Of a DNA stretch of 47,373 nucleotides, positions 16,001-18,122 are shown piece by piece (position 1 is the stretch's first letter; each line of letters starts with the position of its first letter). Made by a program: the position numbers and the translations under genes. The notes beneath the pieces were generated by a model that saw nothing but the letters and a program-made list of their open reading frames with translations, had not been told where the DNA came from and did no database searches. The DNA lies in contig JAGVWX010000006.1 in assembly GCA_018304105.1 (NCBI GenBank), positions 1-47,373 on the forward strand, written 5' to 3'. The DNA is from Candidatus Pacearchaeota archaeon. Lineage in GTDB: Archaea > Nanobdellota > Nanobdellia > Pacearchaeales > GW2011-AR1.

Positions 16001-16471
16001 TTAAACCTTTCTCCAAATAGCATCAATAATTTCTTCTTTTATTTTTTGTCTCGATTTACAAGTGTTTGCCCATTTAGCATACGCTTGCCAACCTTGATAG
16101 ACTTCAGATAATGAACGGAAATCCAATAACCCCTCTTCAAATAGTTTAATTTTTATCTTCATGCTTCTAATGTTCCTCTTTCTTAATATTTTATAATGAT
16201 TAAAATTTCTAAAGCCAACAAAATCGATTCCTCTTGCTAATGGAATCACGCGTGATTTCTGTTTATGCAATTCTAGCTTCAAGTTTCTATGTAAGAAATC
16301 ATCGATTTGTTCTTTCCAAATATCTAATTGTTTTTTTGAGCGATGCAAAATCACAAAATCATCAACATAGCGAATGTAATATCTTATTTTGAGAACATTT
16401 TTGGCGAAGTAATCAAGCTCGTGTAAGTAGACGTTTGCAAAAAACTGCGAGGTTAGATTGCCAAGAGGCAT
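16001..16471 (-). CDS. DGR-type reverse transcriptase, C-terminal part (frame-disrupted)
   Basis: This frame encodes the second part of the reverse transcriptase. It begins at an internal Met inside motif 4, MPLGNLTSQFFANVYL; the LGNLTSQ form matches the (I/L)GxxxSQ signature of DGR reverse transcriptases rather than the QGxxxSP of group II intron enzymes. YIRYVDDFVIL holds the catalytic YxDD (about residues 35-38). A thumb-like end (VYQGWQAYAKWANTCK) follows. On its own it lacks the first catalytic Asp, which is in the upstream frame. Reading through the 10-G tract with one extra G, or two fewer, would join the two parts as ...TPQIGGGGERLRGMPLGN. The independent start is therefore probably not real. 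Confidence 0.88.
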   Translation of the reverse strand: MPLGNLTSQFFANVYLHELDYFAKNVLKIRYYIRYVDDFVILHRSKKQLDIWKEQIDDFLHRNLKLELHKQKSRVIPLARGIDFVGFRNFNHYKILRKRNIRSMKIKIKLFEEGLLDFRSLSEVYQGWQAYAKWANTCKSRQKIKEEIIDAIWRKV

Positions 16472-17040
16472 GCCTCGGAGTCGTTCGCCCCCCCCCCGAT
16501 TTGTGGCGTATTAGAAAGTATTTGCCTGACAAGCCAAATAATCTCGCAGTCTATAATTTTTCGTTTGAACATTGAAAGCAAAATCTCATGGTCAATCTCG
16601 GCAAAATAATGCCTAACATCAGCTTTAAGACAAAAAGCATTTCGAGAATAATTTTGAGTGACTTTTCTTATGAAATAATCAAATCTTTTTAATGCAAACA
16701 AAGTTCCCTTGCCTTTCTGGTTTGCACAGGAGTCATAAATAAATCTTCTCTCAAAGATTTGACCAATAACAAGAATTAAAGCATGATGGACAACTCTATC
16801 TTTAAAGTTGGATTTCGAGATAACTCTTGTCTTTGGATCTCGAAGAACAAAAGTCGTTAAAGGTTTAGGTTTGTAAGTTTTGTTAATCAACTCCTTATGC
16901 AATTCAAGTAAATTTTTCTCCAAGTTTTCTTCAAATTTAAGAACATCTTTTTTATGGGCTTTTCCTTTCCGAGCATTTCTCCACGCTAAAGTCAAGTTGC
17001 CCATAGAACAAAGATACTCATACGAAATATTCTCATTCAT
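16453..17040 (-). CDS. DGR-type reverse transcriptase, N-terminal part (frame-disrupted)
   Basis: This frame encodes the fingers and first palm part of the reverse transcriptase. ATG 17040 is chosen because GAGGG lies seven bases upstream; the frame is open further upstream, but that stretch is the TR. Motifs include NLTLAWRNARKGK near the N-terminus, SKSNFKDRVVHHAL (motif 2 region) and LKADVRHYFAEIDHEILL with the first catalytic Asp. After TPQI the gene enters a run of ten G and goes out of frame, ending 12 residues later. The rest of the enzyme continues in the overlapping frame at 16001-16471. It would make cDNA from the TR transcript at 17061-17143. No Avd-like accessory gene is visible beside it. 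Confidence 0.88.
   Translation of the reverse strand: MNENISYEYLCSMGNLTLAWRNARKGKAHKKDVLKFEENLEKNLLELHKELINKTYKPKPLTTFVLRDPKTRVISKSNFKDRVVHHALILVIGQIFERRFIYDSCANQKGKGTLFALKRFDYFIRKVTQNYSRNAFCLKADVRHYFAEIDHEILLSMFKRKIIDCEIIWLVRQILSNTPQIGGGANDSEACLLAI
16488..16497 (-). repeat. 10-G homopolymer that breaks the RT reading frame
   Basis: Ten consecutive C on the + strand (G on the coding strand) lie inside the reverse transcriptase gene, just before the LGxxxSQ motif. Frame continuity needs 8 or 11 G. A -1 ribosomal slip or one added G during transcription would also restore the frame. Runs of this length are rare in this AT-rich window. Confidence 0.9.
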
Positions 17041-17047
17041 TATAATA

Positions 17048-17052
17048 CCCTC
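17048..17052 (-). promoter_or_regulatory. Ribosome binding site deciding the RT start
   Basis: The coding strand reads GAGGG seven bases before ATG 17040. This supports that Met over the upstream in-frame TTG at 17091, which would fall inside the template repeat. The site starts about eight bases after the 3' end of the TR, so TR and RT probably share one transcript. Confidence 0.6.
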
Positions 17053-17060
17053 GACCAAGG

Positions 17061-17143
17061 TCATTCCGAAAGCATTGTTGTCATTGTCCAAGTTCCTGTT
17101 CCTGCAGTTGAGGTTAGAACCGTTCTGAGGATTGTTGAACCAC
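17061..17143 (-). repeat. DGR template repeat (TR)
   Basis: This 83-base segment aligns without gaps to 17495-17577 inside the target gene at a constant offset of 434 bases. In coding orientation the TR holds 28 adenines and 55 other bases. Twenty adenines differ in the VR and none of the other 55 bases do. The TR is rich in AAC/AAT codons (Asn) in the target frame, which is the standard DGR design because A-mutagenesis of AAY reaches many amino acids but no stop codon. It lies between the target gene and the RT start, the usual non-coding TR position. Confidence 0.97.
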
Positions 17144-17200
17144 GGCGCTTGTAGCCATTGTTGTCTTCACATCACCGAAACAGCACGCATGCGGTTTCTG

Positions 17201-17210
17201 TATTTTATAG
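17201..17210 (-). promoter_or_regulatory. Putative archaeal TATA box for the TR-RT transcript
   Basis: The minus strand reads CTATAAAATA here, a good archaeal TATA box. Transcription would start about 25 bases downstream, near 17180, placing the TR about 40 bases into the RNA and the RT start about 140 bases in. This would let the TR-RT unit be made independently of the target gene. Confidence 0.5.
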
Positions 17211-17312
17211 CTTAAAATCAACGCAAACAAACATTAACAAAATGGCGTGTGGCCTCTTGCCTCTTTTCAGAGTGGTCGAGGCATACTTACTAGAAAGGGG
17301 ATGTTTAAAAAT

Positions 17313-18122
17313 CTACTCACTTCGCATTCTCAATTTTTCTAAAAGACCTTTAGACAATGGTCGTGTAATTGTATTTGCTAAACCAGAAAGTCCTGCTTCT
17401 TGAAGCACTACTGGAATAACTTCAGAGTTCGCTTTTCCAATTTCAGTTAAGCTATATCTAATTTTTCGCGCGCTGGCTTCGCCAGAAACACGACGCACCC
17501 CGAAAGCACCGTAGCCATCGCCCAAGCCCCTGCCCCAGCAGTTGAGGTAAGAACCGCCCTGAGGACTGCCGAACCACACATAATTTACTGTTGCATTTTT
17601 TGAATCTGCATCTAAGCCAAAAAACGGAATGCCTTTAGGAGAAAACTTTTCAATATACTTTCCTGCGTTCCCTTCTAACAAGAATCTTGTCTCGTCCATT
17701 TCAGGAGTTAAATTAAAATTGCCATCTTGAGAAACAACAATCGCGGTTCTGTCTTCTGGCTCAATTCCTTCTTCGCTCTTCGCTATTGCTTCCACAGCAT
17801 CGTAAAGCTCTCGAGGCATCTCAAGGTATTTTCCATTTCTATGCTGTTGTACTGCTAGAAAAGCCATTGCACGATTCATTAATGGAGATGGCTTATACAA
17901 AACAGTCTTCGCACCCTTTACTTTTACAGGAGCAACACTTGTTCGCGTAAAATCATTAGAAAGCCCAGCAATTCTAATCATCGCTGTTTCAGCCGGAGTT
18001 ACCAAATAAGGATGTGCAATCCCAACATCTTCAAAAGCCTTAATCTGCTCATCTAAAGGCGCAGCTATCTGAAACACTTCACCAAGTCCTTCAACATTTC
18101 CCAAGCTTCTTGCTTCTGCCAT
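17313..18122 (-). CDS. DGR target protein with variable C-type-lectin-like segment
   Basis: A 269-residue protein whose residues 183-209 are encoded by the VR. The region WFGSPQGG...CWGRG...AFGVRR resembles the variable tail of C-type-lectin/FGE-like DGR targets, which usually end in GFRV. Compared with the TR, residues 185, 186, 189, 192, 196, 197, 199, 201-205 and 209 have been changed (now G, S, G, Y, W, G, G, G, D, G, Y, G, V). Residues 1-170 match no family I know. No signal peptide or membrane helix is visible, so it looks cytosolic. Unlike many targets it continues 59 residues past the VR. A TATA box 22-29 bases upstream of ATG suggests a leaderless transcript. What it binds is unknown. 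Confidence 0.9.
   Translation of the reverse strand: MAEARSLGNVEGLGEVFQIAAPLDEQIKAFEDVGIAHPYLVTPAETAMIRIAGLSNDFTRTSVAPVKVKGAKTVLYKPSPLMNRAMAFLAVQQHRNGKYLEMPRELYDAVEAIAKSEEGIEPEDRTAIVVSQDGNFNLTPEMDETRFLLEGNAGKYIEKFSPKGIPFFGLDADSKNATVNYVWFGSPQGGSYLNCWGRGLGDGYGAFGVRRVSGEASARKIRYSLTEIGKANSEVIPVVLQEAGLSGLANTITRPLSKGLLEKLRMRSE
17473..17485 (-). promoter_or_regulatory. Hairpin just downstream of the VR 3' end
   Basis: On the coding strand CTGGC, GAA, GCCAG form a perfect 5-bp stem with a 3-base loop, starting nine bases after the VR ends. Known DGRs such as that of phage BPP-1 have a GC-rich hairpin/cruciform just after the VR that aids target recognition. Position and GC-rich character match; function is inferred. 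Confidence 0.5.
17495..17577 (-). repeat. DGR variable repeat (VR)
   Basis: This is the mutated copy of the TR inside the target gene, covering codons 183-209 plus one base on either side. The changes from TR are 16 A to G, 3 A to T and 1 A to C, all at TR adenines. Several are double changes in one codon, for example AAC to GGC four times. The invariant blocks encode WF, PQ, GGS/L-N-C, R and AFG, which would form the scaffold. The absence of any non-A difference suggests recent retrohoming. Confidence 0.97.

Follow-up and report, generated by a model that had tools for sequence, protein, structure and literature searches.

A simple sequence repeat interrupts the reverse transcriptase gene of a Pacearchaeota diversity-generating retroelement and probably makes it phase-variable

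The window analysed here, 47,373 nucleotides of Candidatus Pacearchaeota archaeon (GCA_018304105.1, contig JAGVWX010000006.1, positions 1-47,373), carries a diversity-generating retroelement (DGR), all parts of which lie on the minus strand in the order target gene (18122-17313), RT-16 RNA (17281-17146), template repeat (TR, 17143-17061) and reverse transcriptase (RT, 17040-16001). The RNA stops 2 nt short of the TR, and the gap between the TR and the start of the RT is just 20 nt. The list of open reading frames holds no additional gene between target and RT, and no Avd gene was seen in the window cassette. The cassette sits among ordinary archaeal genes, flanked by one for a prefoldin subunit and one for a HemK2-like methyltransferase; searched at the DNA level, the host assembly (1.06 Mb in 23 contigs) yielded one copy of the cassette only. 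A scan of viral_contigs with the catalytic half of the RT returned zero matches and so gave no sign of a viral origin; we take the DGR to be cell-encoded.

The TR (17143->17061) and the variable repeat (VR, 17577->17495, minus strand, target codons 182-210) align without gaps in coding orientation and differ at 20 positions, every one of which is an adenine in the TR. Thus 20 of the 28 TR adenines are changed (16 A to G, 3 A to T and 1 A to C), compared with 0 of the 55 other bases (P = 3.8e-13 for all 20 mismatches to fall on the 28 adenines by chance); the count becomes 19 of 27 adenines if the last TR base is dropped. This computed alignment bears out the repeat positions and the adenine-only differences given in a preliminary description of the locus, and the 13 changed residues reported there (185, 186, 189, 192, 196, 197, 199, 201-205 and 209) are right as well. 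To these we add residue 208, where the difference is silent, and residue 210, where the change comes from the last TR base, at the extreme edge of the repeat. The same adenine-restricted pattern is found in most related loci. Just 3' of the VR, a possible hairpin (CTGGC-GAA-GCCAG, 17473-17485, minus strand) is a weak candidate for a recognition stem-loop; its 5-bp stem folds no better than shuffled sequences.

The target gene (17313-18122, minus strand) encodes a 269-residue protein that is predicted to carry the archaeal CLec fold of AvpA, the crystallised nanoarchaeal DGR variable protein (PMC5006420). The AlphaFold model has a pLDDT of 87, and the top Foldseek match is AvpA itself (5ioo, E 5e-6), with the next match at 0.8. 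The likeness is by predicted fold only; no sequence relatives of the target were found in Pfam, NCBIfam, PHROGs or the PDB, and its closest named relative comes from a Candidatus Pacearchaeota genome. The preliminary description had matched the N-terminal domain to no known family, and indeed we found no sequence family for the target, but the domain belongs to the predicted AvpA-like fold. The VR occupies residues 182-210 and is followed by two predicted tail helices (225-242 and 246-268), the tail being modelled with lower confidence. In AvpA, the VR spans residues 181-203 and the tail, of 46 residues, is predicted as two helices (PMC5006420). Among related target genes, those of loci L004, L006 and L013 have a stop codon within or just past the VR region, that of L004 lying within the VR.

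The RT-16 RNA (RF03019; 17146-17281, minus strand) is detected by Rfam above the gathering score both in the window and in 19 of 20 DGR loci tested among the relatives, where its end lies at or close to the TR. Because of this recurrent placement, we consider RT-16 to be the structured leader of the template RNA here. By RNA folding and complementarity, the 5' end of RT-16 (17273-17281) can pair with an arm beyond the TR (17049-17057, minus strand), forming a candidate long-range helix round the TR, the equivalents of which lie in loci L074-L176. In pairing tests among these relatives, leader/post-TR duplexes average -26.6 kcal/mol when both strands come from the same locus versus -19.6 kcal/mol when they come from different loci, and an anchored 12-bp stretch pairs in 80% of own-locus versus 65% of cross pairs (30 loci). 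Compensatory changes are seen in the helix, with C-G in 19 and T-A in 11 at one position. The Rfam model of RT-16 stops at the TR, and the long-range helix falls outside it.

As assembled, the RT reading frame is not intact. The N-terminal half (16453-17040, minus strand) starts with the ATG at 17040 and ends at a stop shortly past a G10 tract (16488-16497, minus strand; C10 on the plus strand), while the catalytic half (16001-16510, minus strand), which runs from GMPLGNLTSQ through YVDD, is open in another frame. Of the tract lengths tried, 6-15, only 8, 11 and 14 leave the RT open along its full length. This tract is the only G/C homopolymer of at least 9 across the whole 1.06-Mb assembly. 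The enzyme otherwise has the marks of the DGR clade, with SQ in motif 4 (LGNLTSQ) and a YxDD box (YVDD). In the PDB, both halves match 8ub7_A best (E 6e-20 and 4e-15), ahead of group II intron RTs; we take 8ub7, a 328-aa RT, to be the DGR enzyme of Bordetella phage BPP-1. The match of the two halves to RVT_1 is weak and that to a phage RT PHROG is strong, and over the catalytic half, identity to the RT of ANMV-1, an archaeal virus that carries a DGR, is 43%. The adenine-only TR/VR differences, the RT motifs with the 8ub7_A match and the AvpA-like target together support the DGR reading of the preliminary description, which had overlooked the break of the RT into two frames and the RT-16 RNA next to the TR. 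An intact RT frame is not strictly required for DGR status (PMC3521204, PMC8008677). A split enzyme that restarts at the Met of GMPLGN was also considered; the same Met is present in most in-frame RTs and is thus not evidence for a split enzyme.

RT loci with their surrounding DNA were gathered at the levels of genus, family (138 genomes, of which 50 have an RT) and class (376 genomes), the relatives being represented by draft assemblies with one genome per species. A simple sequence repeat (G8-13, C11 or (AG)n) is present in 41 of the 107 related RTs, with (AG)n reaching 54 nt. Thirty-nine of the 41 tracts end 7-82 nt ahead of the motif-4 Met, a site that in 8ub7 corresponds to a short loop only; the other 2 lie past YVDD, away from the usual site, and count against the switch proposed below. 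The density of repeats in the RT genes is 34 times that of the flanking DNA. On a tree of the 107 RTs, repeat status switches at least 29 times, with at least 7 of the switches forced by well-supported branches, so repeats come and go repeatedly at one site.

The presence of a repeat goes with a broken frame. In the family set, which was unselected, 29 of the repeat-bearing RTs are out of frame and 6 are in frame, compared with 2 and 31 of the repeat-free RTs (Fisher 4e-11). For family and class together (n = 107), the numbers are 34 out and 7 in frame with a repeat and 6 out and 60 in frame without one, counts that are biased in that 39 class-level RTs were partly picked as short-frame matches. 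Adding or removing 1-2 repeat units reopens 30 of the 34 out-of-frame RTs, whereas random placement does so in 91 of 1360 trials.

The out-of-frame RTs might be pseudogenes, dead enzymes in decaying cassettes; inactivated DGR RTs whose VRs are fresh were described before in a few cases and taken as recent losses (PMC3521204). However, the breaks sit at the repeat, the catalytic half remains open with YxDD in nearly all loci, and the VRs of the broken loci have not decayed. At out-of-frame loci, the VRs differ from their TRs at 57% of adenines and 1.5% of other bases, and at repeat-free in-frame loci at 51% and 1.1%; non-A divergence is equal in the two groups (p 0.83). By this measure, VR copying is recent in both, and therefore the out-of-frame state is either short-lived or leaky. 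Just 6 of the 66 repeat-free RTs are broken, which speaks against general decay, although breaks of this kind also count against phase variation. Pseudogenes are, in our estimate, a very unlikely reading.

Phase variation explains the fresh VRs of out-of-frame loci directly, and we think it probable that the RT gene is phase-variable, with a repeat-slippage switch acting on a cell-encoded, Pacearchaeota-like DGR. The repeats at the same RT spot in dozens of relatives suggest that hypermutation is turned on and off by slippage. In the mechanism that we propose, the RT would copy the TR, within an RNA bearing the RT-16 leader, into adenine-mutagenised cDNA, and this cDNA would replace the VR of the AvpA-like, lectin-fold protein. 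The simple repeat, placed in a tolerant loop ahead of motif 4, would gain and lose units by replication slippage, and the catalytic half of the RT would thereby shift into or out of frame; most cells would not hypermutate, and a minority would. At the level of sequence, the DGR anatomy, TR/VR differences confined to adenines, a reading frame broken at the tract, the recurrence of repeats at this site and the fresh VRs of out-of-frame loci are established. From these we infer that tract length varies within populations and that active RT is made in in-frame cells only, and the purpose of the switch would be to limit the cost of hypermutation. More broadly, it seems likely that DPANN archaea widely gate the DGR hypermutator by repeat slippage, a two-tier diversity system in which the repeat would be repeatedly gained and lost at the same loop of the enzyme.

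The distribution of tract phases bears on this proposal in two ways. Tracts fall into the three phases 7, 15 and 15 times, which is compatible with random drift (p 0.18), but in-frame tracts (7 of 41) fall below the one third expected (p 0.03), which counts against phase variation. That 34 of 41 repeat-bearing RTs are out of frame and yet have fresh VRs is what programmed recoding would account for: through transcriptional or ribosomal slippage on the repeat, an out-of-frame gene would steadily yield small amounts of full-length RT. Such an interpretation has been given for the DGR RT of the Quimbyvirus phage, which spans three frames and is read as programmed frameshifting (PMC8008677). However, recoding by a set signal should always shift in one direction, and opposite shifts are needed equally often (15 and 15). 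Moreover, some repeat-bearing RTs are in frame, and dinucleotide repeats of up to 54 nt occupy the same site. Recoding is therefore the main rival to phase variation, albeit in our view an unlikely one.

The length of a homopolymer as assembled may itself be wrong, which also counts against the phase-variation reading. Some data types are prone to errors at long homopolymers, and the assemblies are drafts, so the frame breaks might be sequencing or assembly errors in RTs that are truly always in frame. Errors of this kind would leave the recurrence of the repeat at one RT site unexplained. In addition, the frame is also lost at tracts of only 8-9 G (L118, L120, L122 and L147), lengths that should cause assemblers little trouble, and coding G tracts outside RT genes are mostly in frame (6 of 8, a small sample). 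We regard assembly error as very unlikely.

DPANN DGRs and AvpA-like targets are known, as are DGR RTs that are occasionally broken (PMC4372165, PMC5006420, PMC3521204), and DGRs of subterranean Nanoarchaeota and other DPANN with such targets have already been described (Paul 2015, PMC4372165; Handa 2016, PMC5006420), in agreement with the statement in the preliminary description that DGRs occur in some DPANN archaea. The window DGR resembles these in its adenine-specific TR/VR differences, its orphan target of AvpA fold, the short helical tail past the VR and its cell-encoded nature, but the available sections of both papers mention neither a repeat tract nor an out-of-frame RT. Similarly, the Quimbyvirus system shares with the loci studied here a DGR RT that extends over several frames and fresh adenine-specific VRs, and differs in that the part of its report available to us makes no mention of a repeat tract (PMC8008677). 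With the DGR of Bordetella phage BPP-1, the window cassette has in common a related RT, adenine mutagenesis and a CLec-fold target; it differs in that no Avd gene was seen among its open reading frames and in the short gap between TR and RT start noted above. In the window, the structured RNA precedes the TR on the 5' side, whereas it trails the TR in BPP-1 (PMC8867640).

The closest parallel for the tract is with the contingency loci of Neisseria and Campylobacter, in which G tracts or dinucleotide repeats lie within the reading frame and several frame states occur among relatives (PMC5084427). As at those loci, the RT gene of the window has a long coding repeat that is rare elsewhere in its genome, and its relatives occupy several frame states that whole units mostly restore; the difference is that the gene switched here is the mutator RT of a retroelement and the host is a DPANN archaeon. 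The open-access literature searched, subscription papers being outside that scope, held no description of a phase-variable DGR RT. A 2022 review suggested that DGR hypermutation is suppressed under stable conditions, which would avoid loss of fitness (PMC8867640), and the RT repeat switch would be a concrete, testable mechanism for such restraint. If it is real, a mutator enzyme is subject to phase variation, in archaea whose genomes are very small, and one contingency mechanism gates another. In practice, RT genes split by a tract could be taken for pseudogenes, or could escape DGR surveys that require a full RT frame.

Several further observations were made in these loci. Between Pseudoalteromonas phage ACA1 and prophage proACA1-A, the DGR RT, which is unannotated in the prophage, varies by a single A within a short A6 run (L291 versus L292, alignment position 1360), a difference that we did not count as the same mechanism. 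Contigs often stop ∼0.5-0.8 kb upstream of the RT, near the VR (L118, L119, L122, L123, L133, L137, L144 and others), and the diversity of the VR may be what breaks the assemblies there. Among G tracts of at least 8 in RT loci, taken with the intergenic tracts of G003 and G005, 24 of 62 distinct tracts are followed by CGAA at the DNA level; this holds across reading frames and beyond RT genes as well. Finally, G/C or AG/CT tracts outside RT genes (L068:3280-3291, L069:2245-2255, L070:1657-1667, and in L243, L246, L247, L248 and L284) lie ∼55 nt upstream of genes whose proteins open with a signal- or membrane-like segment, or right where such genes begin, a placement that resembles that in phase-variable surface genes.
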